A model generated the notes under the pieces. It was not told the DNA's origin. It saw only the letters and a list, made by a program, of their open reading frames with translations, and ran no database searches. A DNA stretch of 57,081 bases, from assembly GCA_018004935.1 (NCBI GenBank), contig JAGNBF010000004.1, positions 96,971-154,051 of the forward strand, in the 5' to 3' direction. This stretch comes from Chloroflexota bacterium. Its GTDB lineage: Bacteria; Chloroflexota; Anaerolineae; Promineifilales; Promineifilaceae. Position numbers and translations under genes: made by a program. Position 1 is the stretch's first letter. Each line of letters begins with the position of its first letter. Shown piece after piece: positions 45,783 to 57,081 of this stretch.

Positions 45783-46085
45783 TTTTGTTCATTAAATTTT
45801 TAATCGGGTAACGCATTCATTGACCCCATCCCCCCTGCCCATTCCCGAGGGAAGGGGGGAATTCCAATGGGGCATTTTCCGGGGCGAATGCCCCGGAAAA
45901 TGCCCCTTAGAAAAGTTCCCCGCCCCCGGGGCAGGGTTAGGGGTGGGGGAAACCCTATTACCTGACTGTTTTTTAAACCAACAAAGGGGGAGAAACCCAA
46001 CGGCGCGGTTTGGCGGGCGTCTGCCCGCCAAACCGCGCCAGAAAAAATTCCCCGCCCCCGGGGCGGGGTTAGGGGTGAGGGTATG
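45783..46085. repeat. Two family D elements in tandem
   Basis: The first starts GTTCATTAAATTTTTAATCG, has stem-loop 45869-45906 (GGGGCATTTTCC arms) and GC-rich box 45916-45950, and ends ATTACCTGACTGTTTTTTAA. The second has stem-loop 46002-46039 (GGCGCGGTTTGGC arms) and the same GC box at 46050-46080. The left 40 bp are identical to the left end of the D element at 38277, though the flanking sequences differ. Confidence 0.8.
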
Positions 46086-48497: not shown

Positions 48498-48837
48498 AAT
48501 GTGGGCACAACCCCAGCCCGGCAAACAAGAAAACACACACCAATCTGGGCCGTTTTTCGTGGGCGTTTGCCCACGAAAAACGGCCCCTAAACAATTCCCC
48601 GCCCCTGGGGGCGGGGTTAGGGGTGGGGGAACACCCAAATATACAAAAATCAATTGGGGCCGTTTTTTACCATTCAGAATGTGGGCACAACCCCAGCCCA
48701 GCAAACAAGAAAACACACACCAATCTGGGCCGTTTTTCGTGGGCGTTTGCCCACGAAAAACGGCCCCTAAACAATTCCCCGCCCCTGGGGGCGGGGTTAG
48801 GGGTGGGGGAACACCCAAATATATAATCACCCTGATA
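48498..48837. repeat. Tandem duplication of a family D unit, period 180 bp
   Basis: Two copies of about 160 bp, almost identical, begin GAATGTGGGCACAACCCCAG at 48497 and 48677. Each has a 40-nt stem-loop (48547-48586, 48727-48766; arms GGGCCGTTTTTCGTGGGC) and then CCCCGCCCCTGGGGGCGGGG. The near identity points to a recent event. It lies between the DDAH-like stop and the SulP promoter. Confidence 0.9.
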
Positions 48838-48844
48838 TAGAGTA

Positions 48845-51677: not shown

Positions 51678-52107
51678 TCGTTACGACTAAGGAACGAGAA
51701 TTAAATAAGTTACAGGGGTCTGAAGACGAGCACCTCATGACAAAAGTCAGACTGACGATTTGATGACAACTGTCACCCTCGGTTTGTCGCCGAACCCCCC
51801 ACCCCTAACCCCGCCCCAGGGCGGGGAACTTTTCTAGGCGCGGTTTTTCGGGGCCTTCGTCCCGAAAAACCGCGCCCGGGTCCCCCCCTTCCCTCTGGAA
51901 TCGTAGGGGGATGGGTCTGCCAACGAAATCTACGCAGGGTTTAGGGTTCGCTCAAAATTAAGTTGGGTGGCACGGTCAGGAGACCGGCCACAGCAAATGT
52001 TCAAGTTATTTAATCTTAATATCTATCTTGGTGGTGTACGGCTCCGCCTGAGCTTGTCGAAGGCAGAGCCGGGCTTCGACATACTCAGCCCTCGAAAAGG
52101 TGTATCG
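51678..52107. repeat. Gene-free stretch: TGAC dyads, families D, C, G
   Basis: Two dyads of the form TGAC-N4-GTCA lie at 51738-51749 and 51764-51775, 26 bp apart. A reversed D element follows (51798-51911; stem-loop 51837-51876, arms GGCGCGGTTTTTCGGG). Then come C (51942-52012) and a degenerate G (52045-52100, TGAGCTTGTCGAAGGC core). The HemW-like gene ends at 52108 from the other strand. No gene is seen. Confidence 0.75.
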
Positions 52108-53502
52108 TTACAATGGTTCATTCTTTGCAGGTATATGCGAAATATTTGAAGCTGTGAGTCCCGCCAGGGTTTTCACCATATTGCCCGCAAACCAGGCACC
52201 ATTAGCTGTCAGACAAAAGCCTTCCTTTTCTCGTGACGCTTCAATGAACTGGTGCTGTTGCCAATGAGCCAGTAGATTGGTCTCCCCCATAGGAATTGTC
52301 TGGAAAACCGCCGCTATATGTGAAGGAATCGTCCCGGAAAGGATTGCTGTGGTCAGGGGTAATAGGGCCGTTTCCTGAGATGTGCGCCATAACCCGCCTT
52401 GCAAACCCGGTTGCCCATCTCTGCAAGTGCGCATATAGGCCGCATAGGGAGGATGGCGGAAATGGTAATCACCTAAAACACCATCGGCTATTGTGCCCAA
52501 CGCCAGACAATCTTCCCTTCGAGTAGGAAATGTAAAATAGAGGTTTTTGTCTCGGGTATCTGCCCAGTGATTAAACAGGTTATGCTGAAACCCATATCTT
52601 TGGAGAAGAGCCGCGCCTGCCTGAAATAAGCAGTAGCTGTCCAGATGGCTTCGTTGTGCCAGCCCTTGGGCTTCTGCCCAGCGACGGTTTTGCGGATAAA
52701 TAAGTAGTTCATACAGGGAAAAGCCATTGACGCCTAGTGCGATCAGTGTTTCCAGATCAGCTATAAAACCGGTTGCCGTTTGTGAGGGTAAGCCACACAC
52801 CATATCTACAGAAACCACCCACCCCAACGCCACCATTGCGGCAATGGTGTGTAATACGGTTTTTACGGGTTGACGCCGCCCAATTTTTTGGCGCACTGAT
52901 TCTTCCAAACTTTGCACGCCCAGGTGTAAACGACGATAACCTATTTGGTGCAAGGTATGGATCATCTCTGGTGTTAACCCTTGCACCGTGGATTCTAAGG
53001 CCCATTCGGTTTTGGGGGTGATGTGGAAATGGGTGCGGCAACAGGTGGTGAGTTGGGTCAACGCGGCCGCGCTCAGAAAGGTGGGCGTGCCTCCACCCCA
53101 ATGCACAGTAGAAACGGGCCGTTGGTTTAAATTACCTTGTTGGCTCCACAATTGGATCTCCTCACACAAACGATCTACATAGTTTTGGCACTGTTGGGTC
53201 TGATGGGATCTCAATTTGAAGGAGTAACAATCGCAAAAGTGGCATTTACTGGTACAAAAGGGAACGTGCAAATAGAGGCAGAAAGGGTTGTTGGTGTCGT
53301 AGTGGGACAGATAATGGCGCAGATGGTGCCAGGCATCGGGGCCTAATTGATCTAAGGGGCGCCGCCCCCACAGTGGGAGCGGCAACAACCAATGATCTAC
53401 ATGGTAAGTGGGGGCAAGGGCTTGCCATTGTGCCCGGATGCTCTCAGTATTGATGGATGGGGGGAATTGCCGCAAATAAGCGGTTAAAGCGGCTTCGCTC
53501 AT
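52108..53502 (-). CDS. HemW-like radical SAM protein
   Basis: Start at ATG 53502, which overlaps the preceding gene's stop by ATGA; 464 residues. The frame opens 67 codons earlier inside that gene. After an 80-residue lead comes YLHVPFCTSKCHFCDCYSFK with the radical SAM cysteines 83, 87, 90, then the HemW/CPO motifs VHWGGGTPTFL, RLHLGVQSLEE, VSVDMVCGLPSQT and a C-terminal helical region. True HemW is about 380 residues and starts with this strand; the N-terminal lead and longer middle make it a relative, perhaps of the HutW/STM4012 type. Its place as last gene after two SPASM proteins and a PqqD-like protein suggests it finishes or feeds their product, not heme synthesis. Confidence 0.9.
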   Translation of the reverse strand: MSEAALTAYLRQFPPSINTESIRAQWQALAPTYHVDHWLLPLPLWGRRPLDQLGPDAWHHLRHYLSHYDTNNPFCLYLHVPFCTSKCHFCDCYSFKLRSHQTQQCQNYVDRLCEEIQLWSQQGNLNQRPVSTVHWGGGTPTFLSAAALTQLTTCCRTHFHITPKTEWALESTVQGLTPEMIHTLHQIGYRRLHLGVQSLEESVRQKIGRRQPVKTVLHTIAAMVALGWVVSVDMVCGLPSQTATGFIADLETLIALGVNGFSLYELLIYPQNRRWAEAQGLAQRSHLDSYCLFQAGAALLQRYGFQHNLFNHWADTRDKNLYFTFPTRREDCLALGTIADGVLGDYHFRHPPYAAYMRTCRDGQPGLQGGLWRTSQETALLPLTTAILSGTIPSHIAAVFQTIPMGETNLLAHWQQHQFIEASREKEGFCLTANGAWFAGNMVKTLAGLTASNISHIPAKNEPL

Positions 53503-54947
53503 AACGGGAGCACCTCTCGCCCTATGATTATTCCTGCGTTTATCTGATCTCGAACCTGGGCAGTTATTTGATCCAGGCGGGCCTGGGTCAATGTTTTTTG
53601 CAGTTGACAGCGAAAAGCTGGTATGCCCGCGGCCGCGTCGTCCAAAGGACAAACTTCTGGGCATCCCCGTACACAATGATATTGGTTGAAACAATCCCGG
53701 CACTGCTCCGGCAGAGGGAAAAGAACCTGGCGTAAATAGTCAATCTGTCGCTTATCTAATAGGAAAGGATATTCGCCAGGATCCGAACAAAGCCTAGAAC
53801 TTACGGGGCTACTCGAGCCGGTCTCCTGACCGTACTCGCTATGGCTCTGTGGGCACACCGGCCACAACGCGTAAGTCCTAAGCTGAACACCGGCGGCTTT
53901 GGCCTGCTCCGCCTGGGTAATTTTGAAGCAAGCGGTGGCGGTATCACCCGGTATCAGGTTCAAAACCTGACGAAACAGATGACAGTAAGGACCGTGAATC
54001 TCGTTCACACGGCTCCCAGAGTATTGCCAGCGCAAACCATATTGTTGGGCTACCTGTTGGGCGGCCAAAAAGGCAATAACAAATTCCTCGGCATCGTGAA
54101 GGGTCATGGAGGGTGTAGCCCGCCCTACCCCATAAACGGGTTCCACATGAATGGCGGCGGGTTTGAGAATCTGGCAGAGATAGTGGGCGATTTCTGACTG
54201 CCGGGCAACGGATTGAGGGGTGATAGTGACACGGACATGAAAGGGGATGCCCTGTTCACGCCAGATACGGGCACTGTTTTCCACATAAGGGGCGCTGTTT
54301 TGGCCCCCCCACAAGGGACGTTGCCGGGCCTGAATATCGGGTGGGCCATCACAAGATAAACCGAGTAGATCAAATTTTTCGGCCAGGAAGCGAGCCGTAG
54401 CCGAGGGGAAGACGCCATTGGTCGCCAGGTAACGGAACAAAGGCACATGGGCTTGTTGGGCAACCGCCTCCACCTCATGTAACACCTGGGCCAGGTAAGG
54501 CTGATCCAGGGCTGGTTCTCCACCTCCATGACAAACCAGGGTCATACCGCTGGCCTGGTGTTGACAGTTGGCGGCAACCAGCGCGGCCGCGTCCCGGATT
54601 GTGCGTAAATTTAGACGCGGTGACGACAAGGGCGAGGGTTTCGCGTAACAATAGGGGCAAAAAAGATTACACTGATTATGCAGATAGAGCGTCAGGCAAA
54701 CAGGAGCAAAGGGAGTCGTTTGCAGAGCATCCCAGCGACGCCGGACAGTCTGAGCCTGTTGGTACAGGTTAAGGGCCTCTGGATGGGTGAGTTGGGCATC
54801 CAACAGGCTGGCAGTGAAGCGGGTGGCTTCTGGGGCAGGCACAACAACCAGATACCCCGGTGTATAGAACAAACTATAAGTCAAGTGCTCCTGGCGAAAA
54901 ATCGCGGCCGCATGTGGGGATATGTGGATGGGAAGCCAGTCTGTCAT
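53499..54947 (-). CDS. Radical SAM/SPASM maturase 1
   Basis: This 482-residue protein has radical SAM cysteines 93, 97 and 100 in LHNQCNLFCPYCYAK. The barrel shows VCHGGGEPALDQPYLAQVL, LATNGVF, LGLSCDGPPDIQARQRPLW and VRVTITPQSV. A SPASM-type C-terminal domain has CRDCFNQYHCVRGCPEVC and later Cys for auxiliary 4Fe-4S clusters. Such enzymes modify side chains of ribosomal peptides or protein residues. The start at 54947 has no ribosome site; it overlaps the stop of a 19-codon frame (ATGA), so it may depend on coupling. An 86-bp palindromic insert in frame (53795-53880) codes about 28 residues just before the SPASM region. Confidence 0.93.
   Translation of the reverse strand: MTDWLPIHISPHAAAIFRQEHLTYSLFYTPGYLVVVPAPEATRFTASLLDAQLTHPEALNLYQQAQTVRRRWDALQTTPFAPVCLTLYLHNQCNLFCPYCYAKPSPLSSPRLNLRTIRDAAALVAANCQHQASGMTLVCHGGGEPALDQPYLAQVLHEVEAVAQQAHVPLFRYLATNGVFPSATARFLAEKFDLLGLSCDGPPDIQARQRPLWGGQNSAPYVENSARIWREQGIPFHVRVTITPQSVARQSEIAHYLCQILKPAAIHVEPVYGVGRATPSMTLHDAEEFVIAFLAAQQVAQQYGLRWQYSGSRVNEIHGPYCHLFRQVLNLIPGDTATACFKITQAEQAKAAGVQLRTYALWPVCPQSHSEYGQETGSSSPVSSRLCSDPGEYPFLLDKRQIDYLRQVLFPLPEQCRDCFNQYHCVRGCPEVCPLDDAAAGIPAFRCQLQKTLTQARLDQITAQVRDQINAGIIIGREVLPL
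53795..53880. repeat. Palindromic repeat inserted in frame inside the radical SAM gene
   Basis: The segment starts TAGAACTTACG and ends CGTAAGTCCTA, imperfect inverted ends. It contains GCCGGTCTCCTGACCG (53817-53832), a 16-nt match to family C copies elsewhere. It codes a low-complexity stretch (SEYGQETGSSSPVSSRL) unlike radical SAM proteins, and keeps the frame open. Confidence 0.65.
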
Positions 54948-55003
54948 GGGTCGTTGGAGTGGGAACGAGAGGGGAAATGTAGGCTCTCATCCGCACACAT
55001 CAT
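54944..55003 (-). CDS. Possible 19-residue leader or precursor peptide
   Basis: Between the PqqD-like and radical SAM 1 genes a short frame starts at ATG 55003, with AAGGG 8 nt upstream. It reads MMCADESLHFPSRSHSNDP and ends TGA, which overlaps the radical SAM start as ATGA. The next gene has no ribosome site of its own, so this frame is probably translated at least for coupling. PqqA and other short precursors of radical SAM maturases are of similar length and place, but no precursor motif is recognised. It could be only a coupling peptide. Confidence 0.4.
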   Translation of the reverse strand: MMCADESLHFPSRSHSNDP

Positions 55004-55015
55004 TCCGATTGCCCT

Positions 55016-55477
55016 TTACCGGGGCACACAGATACGCAATTGCACCAGATGCAAGAATAAGTCACGGGTAAAGGCAAAGGCTTGTTCTTCCGGCCAATCC
55101 AGGGCGGCGGCAAGTTGGGTGGCGGCGGTACCGATGTCGTGATAACCATTGAACAGATTAAAGGTGTGCGTCGCGGCCGCAGAAAGGCCAAATAGCCCGA
55201 CGGGTTCCTTTTGGGGGGAAACACGGCCCCATACCTGGCCCTTATCCACGGTAATGACACAGCCAGGAACAATAACAGGCACGATTTGCGCCAGAAGATC
55301 ATCCGTGGCCGCACCCAAATCAGCCAACTTAAAGCCGGGAATCCCTCTGGCCTCATCCTCATTCACCTGAAGTTCCGTCTGGAGCAGGCCAAAAAAATCA
55401 CGCCGAGACAGGCGGAAAGACAGATCGCGCCGGGGAATGTTGGGAATAGCAGTAAGTTCATTGGGGGGTGTAGTCAT
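55016..55477 (-). CDS. PqqD-like (RiPP recognition element) protein
   Basis: This 153-residue protein is unlikely to be an enzyme. The N-terminal 80 residues (IPNIPRRDLSFRLSRRDFFG) show no known motif. The C-terminal 65 have the winged-helix PqqD/RRE pattern: VGLFGLSAAATHTFNLFNGY, then DIGTAATQLAAALDWPEEQA and FTRDLFLHLVQLRICVP. PqqD-like domains bind leader peptides and present them to radical SAM maturases. It lies 18 nt after radical SAM/SPASM 2 and before the short frame and radical SAM 1, in one operon. A GCGGCCGC (55173) codes SAAAT in the first helix of the domain. Confidence 0.75.
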   Translation of the reverse strand: MTTPPNELTAIPNIPRRDLSFRLSRRDFFGLLQTELQVNEDEARGIPGFKLADLGAATDDLLAQIVPVIVPGCVITVDKGQVWGRVSPQKEPVGLFGLSAAATHTFNLFNGYHDIGTAATQLAAALDWPEEQAFAFTRDLFLHLVQLRICVPR

Positions 55478-55495
55478 CGTAATACGCTTTTAGAG

Positions 55496-56830
55496 TTACG
55501 CGGCCGCGTTCCGTCGCCATACCCCCTGCCCTTCCGCAATCACCTGCAACAACCGTTGCCGGGTAATTGTCTGATTCAGCAAACAACGGGGACCACGTAA
55601 CAAATGCCCGCCCGGCCGGTTCTGCAATGACCGGGTATAACAATCACCAGCACAAGACCAATAACAAAAACAATCCCGGCACTGCTGACGACGCTCAACC
55701 ATCAGGGTATGCAAATGATGACGCGCCGCTTCATTGAGTGTCACAACCCCATCATCCAGACGGCCAATCGCCGAAAGGCTCGCCAACGGATGAGTCGGAT
55801 CGGTGACTTCATAACAGGCTACCAGGGTGCCGCGTGGGCTGATGATGAGAGCATCATAGGGGGCCAGGCAAAACGTGGGCGTGATCGTTCCCAGGCGTGC
55901 TCCAGAATACATCAGACGCCGCCCCGCCGCCTGGGCAATATCCCAGGCGGCCATAAACGCTTCGGCAAAGGCCAGACAATCACTTTCGGCCGGGACGCCA
56001 TGACCACCACGTTGCGTATTAAAACTCGGCTCCACCTGTAGGCTACGACAACCGGTATGTGCACAAATGAAGCGTACCCCTTCCACAAACGCGGCCCAGG
56101 GAGCAGTCGCCGTCATCCGCATTCCATAAGGAAAATGATGGCTGTCTAATTCTGCAATGTTGGCCCGAATGAGGCTGGCCGAACCCTGACCAGAAGTGAA
56201 AGGGCGTTGCCGATCTTGGGTTTCCGGAGTGCCATCCCAGGAAAGGGTCAGGCCGTCTATGTGCTCCAAAATCCACTCTCGTTGCCGGGGCGACCAGACA
56301 CCATTGGAAGTGAGGGTGATGCGGGCAGAAAGGGGCTTTTGTCGGGCGTAGGCAGTGCACTCTTGGAGAACCTGCCAGGCAAAGGTAGGTTCTCCCCCTC
56401 CGTGAAAAGAGATTTCAAATTGTGTTTTGCGTAAGGCCTGGGCCTGTTCACAAACAATGTCAATGGCGGCACAGCCCTGTTGTACGGTCAACGTTTCGGG
56501 GGGAAATTCGCCCGCGGCCGCGTAACAATAGGTACAACGGAGTTGGCACTGATTGGTCAGAAGCAAAACCGCCATGGTAGGCCGAAACAATGTAGCCTGA
56601 TCCCCTGGAGCCGGGGGATCAGGCTCCAAAAAACCAATCTCCGCCAGAAAATCCCATGCCTGAGGCGAACTCTGATGCCATACATCCGCCAGGTGACTGG
56701 CTTGCGCTACCTGCTGGGCCAGAGTCGCCATGGCCCGGTTGCCCACAAAAGCCAACCCAGCCAGGGGCCGAAAAATGATGAATTTATCGGCATTCGCCTG
56801 TTCATCTACGGGAATGATATGTAAATCCAT
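55496..56830 (-). CDS. Radical SAM/SPASM maturase 2
   Basis: First gene of the operon in view, 444 residues, with AAGAAGG 4-5 nt before ATG 56830. A 75-residue N-terminal domain (FIIFRPLAGLAFVGNRAMAT ... FLAEIGFLEPD) may be an RRE-like wing fused to the enzyme. Radical SAM cysteines 95, 99, 102 lie in LTNQCQLRCTYCYAAAG. The barrel shows ISFHGGGEPTFAWQVLQEC, LTSNGVW and LTLSWDGTPETQDRQRPF. The SPASM part reads CRDCFCYWSCAGDCYTRSL. It shares strand order and several motifs with the second enzyme, so the two are distant paralogues that probably act on one substrate. Two GCGGCCGC sites code Ala runs (55500, 56514). Confidence 0.93.
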   Translation of the reverse strand: MDLHIIPVDEQANADKFIIFRPLAGLAFVGNRAMATLAQQVAQASHLADVWHQSSPQAWDFLAEIGFLEPDPPAPGDQATLFRPTMAVLLLTNQCQLRCTYCYAAAGEFPPETLTVQQGCAAIDIVCEQAQALRKTQFEISFHGGGEPTFAWQVLQECTAYARQKPLSARITLTSNGVWSPRQREWILEHIDGLTLSWDGTPETQDRQRPFTSGQGSASLIRANIAELDSHHFPYGMRMTATAPWAAFVEGVRFICAHTGCRSLQVEPSFNTQRGGHGVPAESDCLAFAEAFMAAWDIAQAAGRRLMYSGARLGTITPTFCLAPYDALIISPRGTLVACYEVTDPTHPLASLSAIGRLDDGVVTLNEAARHHLHTLMVERRQQCRDCFCYWSCAGDCYTRSLQNRPGGHLLRGPRCLLNQTITRQRLLQVIAEGQGVWRRNAAA

Positions 56831-56864: not shown

Positions 56865-57081
56865 TGTGTTTCAAAGGAGTTGAATAATTAATTGTTGAAC
56901 TGTTGAACTGTTCATGAAGCGGTAGACGCTCTAGGGTGATTGCCTACGTGGAGTTCCCACACCCCCAACCCCACCCCCCGGGGGCGGGGAGCTTTTCTAA
57001 GGGGCATTTTTCCGGGGCGAATGCCCCAAAAAATGCCCCATTGGAATTCCCCCCCTTCCCAAGGGAATCGGCAGGGGGGGT
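56865..57081. repeat. Family E/D repeats upstream of the radical SAM operon
   Basis: 56865-56940 is a reversed part of the duplicated block at 30.3/32.6 kb (TTGAATAATTAATTGTTGAA, GAAGCGGTAGACG). 56958-57081 is a reversed family D copy with stem-loop 57001-57039 (GGGGCATTTTT arms), cut by the window end. An operon promoter and any upstream precursor gene would lie here or beyond; none is seen. Confidence 0.75.

Follow-up and report, generated by a model that had tools for sequence, protein, structure and literature searches.

A rare and apparently unnamed radical SAM cassette associated with a Tat-exported protein bearing a cysteine-rich C-terminal tail

Radical SAM enzymes take part in several described maturation systems. 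CteB is a thioether-forming maturase, and the substrates of the SCIFF/CteB system are peptides of about 45 residues with six cysteines. In the His-Xaa-Ser system (HxsABCD), two radical SAM enzymes act on a larger protein that bears repeats. That system has been named as such (PMC9062424). PapB, which acts in the PapA/PapB ranthipeptide system, accepts Cys-Xn-Asp/Glu pairs with n from 0 to 6 (PMC9413430), and the Cys-Asp/Glu thioethers formed by QhpD are introduced into a protein subunit destined for export, while this subunit is still in the cytoplasm and not yet translocated (PMC7876137).

We investigated an operon in a window of 57,081 nucleotides (the whole stretch of DNA that was analysed, from a Chloroflexota genome). 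Its four ORFs, all on the minus strand, encode the radical SAM/SPASM enzyme rS1 (55496-56830, 444 aa), a PqqD-like stand-alone RRE (RiPP recognition element; 55016-55477, 153 aa), a second radical SAM/SPASM enzyme, rS2 (53499-54947, 482 aa), and a HemN/HutW-like radical SAM protein (52108-53502, 464 aa). Gaps of 18 bp and 68 bp separate rS1 from the PqqD-like gene and the latter from rS2, while rS2 and the HemN-like gene share an ATGA overlap that holds the start codon of the second; a longer ORF reaching 53703 begins inside rS2, and the ATG at 53502 is backed by the relatives. The initial annotation had placed the four genes in one operon, linked by ATGA overlaps or short gaps, and had recognised two radical SAM/SPASM enzymes among them; both statements hold, with one such overlap and two short gaps. 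In independent genomes the same four genes are again found together, mostly in this order, and they diverge in step, with a pairwise-identity correlation of 0.89-0.96. Therefore, their grouping is not due to chance. We consider it probable that these genes make up the distal half of a cassette that matures a protein exported by Tat, whose C-terminal tail is rich in cysteine.

The rS1 protein presents a CxxxCxxC motif at residue 95, GGGEP at 144 and SPASM cysteines at 321-416, and rS2 presents CxxxCxxC at 93, GGGEP at 141 and a C-terminal CRDCFNQYHCVRGCPEVC...C. Both proteins have the CxxxCxxC core and the C-terminal cysteine set expected of SPASM enzymes, these cysteines being invariant in 12 and 10 homologues, respectively. 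The solved structure closest to rS1 is CteB (5wgg, E 8.5e-37), and the predicted rS1 model aligns with it from residue 1 onwards with a Z of 29.3 over 403 residues, that is, over its whole length and including the N-terminal RRE-like domain formed by residues 1 to about 66. The identity of rS2 is 39-56% to its Chloroflexota cassette homologues and 26% to the Lentisphaerae copy. An in-frame insert of ~35 codons (53775-53895), an imperfect inverted repeat, is missing from nine homologues of rS2; an 84% identical copy lies on contig C57 of the same genome (C57:8583-8667), and the insert shares a 16-17 bp core with repeats elsewhere in the window.

We then compared the genes with the described families. 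All curated NCBIfam scores of the four window genes, and of the cassette members in the relatives, were below the cut-off. PQQ, mycofactocin and GeoRSP had been named as the matches that would refute the claim that no named RiPP class fits, and this claim withstood the comparison. For PQQ, only rB, a short radical SAM enzyme of the complete cassette, matched PqqE (TIGR02109), with 23 bits against a cut-off of 381, and no PqqABC were present in the loci. The best mycofactocin MftC (TIGR03962) scores, obtained in the relatives, were 35-41 bits against 265, with no MftA-like peptide seen, and GeoRSP (TIGR04303) reached at most about 24 bits against 400. The top NCBIfam neighbours were the PapB, SCIFF and QhpD maturases, all thioether-forming. 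PapB (NF047865), the top neighbour of rS1 and rS2, gave 105 and 62 bits with them, respectively, against a cut-off of 340; PapA/PapB shares with the cassette the SPASM fold and, for most precursors, short repeats with Cys and Asp/Glu, but in the cassette more than one RRE and several radical SAM enzymes stand against a single candidate substrate, which is a multidomain protein exported by Tat and no small peptide. The SCIFF maturase model (TIGR03974) gave 94 bits against 425, and the neighbouring substrate is no SCIFF peptide. The nearest precedent is QhpC/QhpD, in which a leader-bearing subunit is cross-linked in the cytoplasm and then exported (PMC7876137). However, QhpD (TIGR03906) gave 79 bits against 453, no qhp structural genes or qhpABCEFG homologues accompany the cassette, and Tat takes the place of the Qhp route, in which QhpE removes the leader and QhpF exports. 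The HxsB model gave 40, 31 and 66 bits against 370, so that membership of HxsABCD is not met, and the repeats of the cassette are CxC-based, not HxS. A literature search for the substrate anatomy of the precursor found no match; it covered open-access texts only, so a paywalled description is not excluded. By inference, the cassette works like a radical SAM RiPP pathway, and differs from one in its substrate and export route.

The PqqD-like protein, which carries an N-terminal extension of about 45 aa, matched no Pfam or NCBIfam model. A search of the RRE profile against PDB sequences gave PqqD 3g2b at an E of 0.27, and, since this was too weak on its own, fold comparison was used. The AlphaFold model (mean pLDDT 82, built from 11 sequences) resembles the lasso B1 RRE 6jx3 (Z 10.8), TbiB1 5v1u (9.7), the PbtF RRE 8t19 (8.9) and PqqD 5sxy (8.8) and 3g2b (8.4). 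Independent RREs and PqqD are thus among its top nine matches (Z 8.4-10.8), and the winged-helix arrangement of an RRE, three strands and then three helices, is present. Another top match, 8hkr, is a methyltransferase domain and not an RRE; therefore, the fold alone is no proof of peptide binding. Foldseek alone gave no match to the model at E < 0.001. Judged from this predicted fold, the protein is an RRE, and the earlier assignment as PqqD-like stands despite the absence of a family match; its peptide binding is inferred only. The bona fide PqqD proteins of the same genome (on contigs C2 and C218) belong to separate loci outside the cassette. Near the N-terminus of the RRE protein (55390-55420), and in its relatives, there is an invariant [FLY].[SDT]RR.[FL] motif that resembles the Tat motif of the precursor, with no hydrophobic stretch behind it; mimicry and chance are both possible.

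As the contig ends at 57081, the proximal half of the cassette and the precursor are absent from the window. In the relatives, the full cassette runs rA, PqqD-A, rB and precursor, then rS1, RRE, rS2 and HemN-like gene, where rA is a SPASM enzyme and PqqD-A a protein of about 95-115 aa with weak PqqD matches; some relatives add a U32-like domain between rB and the precursor. The window operon is the distal half of this larger conserved cassette. A look beyond 57081, suggested by the initial annotation, also located the missing half in the same genome, on the minus strand of C57 (locus L023): rA (C57:3116-4528), PqqD-A (C57:2835-3119), rB (C57:1825-2838) and the precursor (C57:437-1315). A dispersed repeat at the contig end (56968-57079) overlaps C57:1-112 with 98.2% identity over 112 bp (blastn), and the orientation is such that the C57 precursor comes to lie upstream of rS1, about 570 bp away. 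The join is not proven, because the matching stretch is a dispersed repeat, of which a further copy, 91% identical, lies at 45821-45931. The window operon likely adjoins C57; this rests on the repeat overlap and on synteny in the relatives, not on continuous sequence. The assembly break is probably due to such dispersed repeats.

Repeats of this kind were also seen at other positions. Within 48499-48840, a GC-rich repeat is present in tandem, its two copies lying 180 bp apart; it is of the type also seen at 51800-51900 and 56950-57081. In the whole window there are 72 occurrences of the octamer palindrome GCGGCCGC, where 1.4-2.4 are expected under Markov models; C57 has 15 of them in 9.6 kb, but the 11-19 kb loci of the relatives have only 0-2. 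We take this palindrome to resemble the cyanobacterial HIP1 pattern, here in a Chloroflexota genome.

A Tat protein with a Cys-rich tail is found within the cassette at every examined locus that reaches this point. It was analysed in 15 loci (the genome's own, L014-L018, L020-L022, L027-L029, L042, L043 and L055), two of which are cut by contig ends, leaving 13 complete precursors. Where a conserved short precursor had been anticipated, a conserved candidate does adjoin the operon, but it is a protein of the Tat-exported type with about 240-510 aa and no short peptide. All 13 complete precursors carry the N-terminal motif P.[VIL][FY][AT][VL], with its first residue exactly 16 residues ahead of the RR of the Tat signal (RRxF). 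Behind the h-region, most present a lipobox Cys; it is not clear in four of the 13 (L014, L018 and L055, and L029, where it is only doubtful). The middle of the protein is variable, with SH3_3, N_BRCA1_IG or WD40 repeats. The cysteines are concentrated in the tail, with 5-16 in the last 130 residues compared to 0-3 in the body, and no Pfam or NCBIfam model covers this tail. It usually consists of IPPGAVCVCNCV followed by CTCDTV-type hexamers and ends in HYW[YH]PN (HYWYPC in L042). In one tail repeat of L028, Asp is replaced by Glu, a pair also accepted by PapB (PMC9413430). The CTCDTV-type repeats are present in most precursors and few or absent in L016, L017 and L027; therefore, Cys-Asp cross-links cannot be the whole story.

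Two cases depart from this arrangement. Between the HYWYPC precursor and rS1 of L042 (L042:2164-2303), a second tail fragment, TCDTVHYWYPN-stop, is present in another frame and looks like a leftover duplication. In the other case, genome G307, the cassette is divided between two contigs (L027 and L043) and there are two precursors, one WD40 and one Ig-like; the one in L027 is flanked by rS2 and the HemN-like gene.

The gene system is well supported. The presence of SPASM enzymes with a PqqD-like protein had been taken to imply modification of peptide or protein side chains, and the RRE fold, the CteB-like rS1 and the adjoining conserved candidate substrate agree with this, the chemistry being inferred. 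Thioether formation is inferred from the kinship to the PapB, SCIFF/CteB and QhpD maturases and from the Cys-Asp/Glu repeats; the most likely course is thioether cross-linking, possibly with methylation, of the tail in the cytoplasm before Tat export. The conserved n-region of the Tat signal of the precursor would be bound by both stand-alone RREs and by the N-terminal RRE-like parts of the SPASM enzymes; its motif, at a fixed distance from the RR, would act as the leader. Thioethers from tail cysteines to nearby Asp, Glu or Thr carbons would then be formed by the SPASM enzymes, and the partner of rS2, the HemN/HutW-like protein, may carry out an additional modification, perhaps a C-methylation. 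Tat is a route for folded proteins (PMC10924467), and the folded, modified protein would leave by it. Signal peptidase (signal peptidase II for the lipobox-bearing majority) would take off the signal peptide and, with it, the leader. A dedicated protease or exporter would then be unnecessary, and the modified tail would be exposed on the outside of the membrane, carried by a spacer domain. No conserved protease, exporter or immunity gene was found in the cassette loci examined; for protease and exporter this negative evidence is compatible with leader loss by signal peptidase. That the n-region of the Tat signal doubles as a RiPP leader and signal peptidase as leader peptidase, with a Cys-rich tail that carries several cross-links, is finished in the cytoplasm and is shown on a surface lipoprotein, and with five radical SAM enzymes (four SPASM-type and one HemN-like paired with rS2) serving one substrate, is a hypothesis to which we give an even chance.

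Two other fates of the tail have to be weighed. In a conventional RiPP pathway, the Cys-rich tail would be modified, cleaved after export and released as a signal, metallophore or bacteriocin, the SH3, Ig or WD40 part being a carrier. RREs with SPASM enzymes are the usual RiPP set, and the tail is a compact C-terminal Cys-rich core of RiPP size; we nevertheless regard this as unlikely, considering the lack of the three conserved accessory genes named above, the large folded domain that makes up the body, the terminal HYW[YH]PN as the most conserved residues, and the lipobox of most precursors, which points to anchoring. Alternatively, the tail could hold a redox-active protein-derived cofactor, for example formed from the Tyr, Trp or His of HYW[YH]PN, and the protein could be an extracellular electron carrier or sensor. 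The near invariance of this hexapeptide in three phyla would suit such a role, as would the QhpD-type precedent, where a cross-linked subunit holds a quinone cofactor (PMC7876137), but no conserved partner dehydrogenase adjoins the cassette and there is no direct evidence, and we hold this, too, to be improbable.

Cross-linking of a displayed tail remains the reading we prefer, and the HemN-like protein bears on it. This protein presents CxxxCxxC at 83 and GGGTP at 136; it shares these two motifs and the HemN-like fold with ChuW/HutW and other HemN-like proteins. Its nearest curated family is ChuW/HutW (TIGR04107; 228 bits, cut-off 400 not met), followed by HemN (145 bits, cut-off 325) and HemW (TIGR00539; about 128 bits, cut-off 205 not met); the solved relatives include HemN 1olt (E 1.7e-38) and the methyltransferase NocN (E 2.3e-25). 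It had been described as HemW-like: a HemN-type radical SAM protein it is, but one nearer to HutW and HemN. Housekeeping HemW is ruled out as its identity, the true HemW of the genome (311 bits) being encoded on contig C46. In an Acidobacteriota MAG, an rS2-type enzyme is fused to a HemN-like enzyme (L055:5834-8551, 905 aa), and the same fusion is found in a Lentisphaerae MAG as a 949-residue open frame (L056); a single shared ancestral fusion is possible. These fusions tie the HemN-like gene to a peptide-modifying partner and not to heme metabolism. Unlike ChuW/HutW, this HemN-like protein also always lies in a peptide-maturation cassette. It could still be supposed that it acts on a tetrapyrrole, and that the tail cysteines receive heme or another cofactor in covalent linkage in place of peptide cross-links, given that ChuW/HutW degrades heme and that QhpD, with which rS1 and rA also score, comes from an enzyme that bears heme and quinone. 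This appears quite unlikely, as the tail has CxC repeats and no CxxCH, the cassette shows no recurrent heme lyase or cytochrome gene, the HemN-like protein is joined in two genomes to a SPASM enzyme of the peptide type, and methyltransferases of peptides and natural products, such as NocN, also have HemN-like folds.

The cassette was found in Chloroflexota, in one Lentisphaerae MAG and in one Acidobacteriota MAG, the source genomes being mostly MAGs. We searched 396 Anaerolineae genomes for HYW[YH]PN-stop with a degenerate pattern of 21 bases and found it in nine (reversed control, 0 matches): it occurs in 8/8 genomes with the PqqD-like protein of the window and in 1/388 without it (Fisher p = 6e-16, an optimistic value, as related genomes are treated as independent). 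The sole exception, G240, carries rA, PqqD-A, rB, the precursor and rS1. In the phylum of the Lentisphaerae MAG, the pattern is present in one of 289 genomes, namely the MAG itself, and in the Acidobacteriota MAG with an rS1 homologue (L019) it lies on another contig, beside rB-U32 and the 905-aa fusion. The cassette is rare and patchy in its distribution. That the Tat protein is not the substrate and the cassette modifies a protein encoded elsewhere is very improbable: SPASM maturases can act on distantly encoded substrates and the window genome's own precursor is on another contig, but the Tat protein and the cassette co-occur perfectly and are adjacent, and each genome has one HYWYPN protein, except G307, with two, each beside part of the cassette.

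The next rS1-like matches in the phylum (G441 and G500, about 1e-78) belong to another system, without the cassette and without the Tat protein. They are orphan SPASM enzymes of small complete Chloroflexota genomes (L049 in G441, L048 in G500), and in L048 only, a 48-aa Lys/Pro-rich ORF lies upstream.

Taken with the Tat protein as its substrate, this rare and apparently unnamed cassette seems to employ up to five radical SAM enzymes and two leader-binding proteins to rework the Cys-rich tail of an exported protein. So far, the known targets of radical SAM/RRE chemistry have mainly been small peptides that are secreted, along with a few subunits of enzymes; here the target appears to be a large exported protein of modular build, in which the tail is kept and the body is swapped (SH3, Ig-like, WD40). 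If this is true, the cassette would represent a new substrate class for this chemistry and would offer a direct test of whether Tat serves the export of radical SAM products. It would also provide a case of a HemN/HutW-like enzyme acting on a peptide alongside a SPASM enzyme, and a tag-like tail with a fixed recognition motif, movable between proteins.
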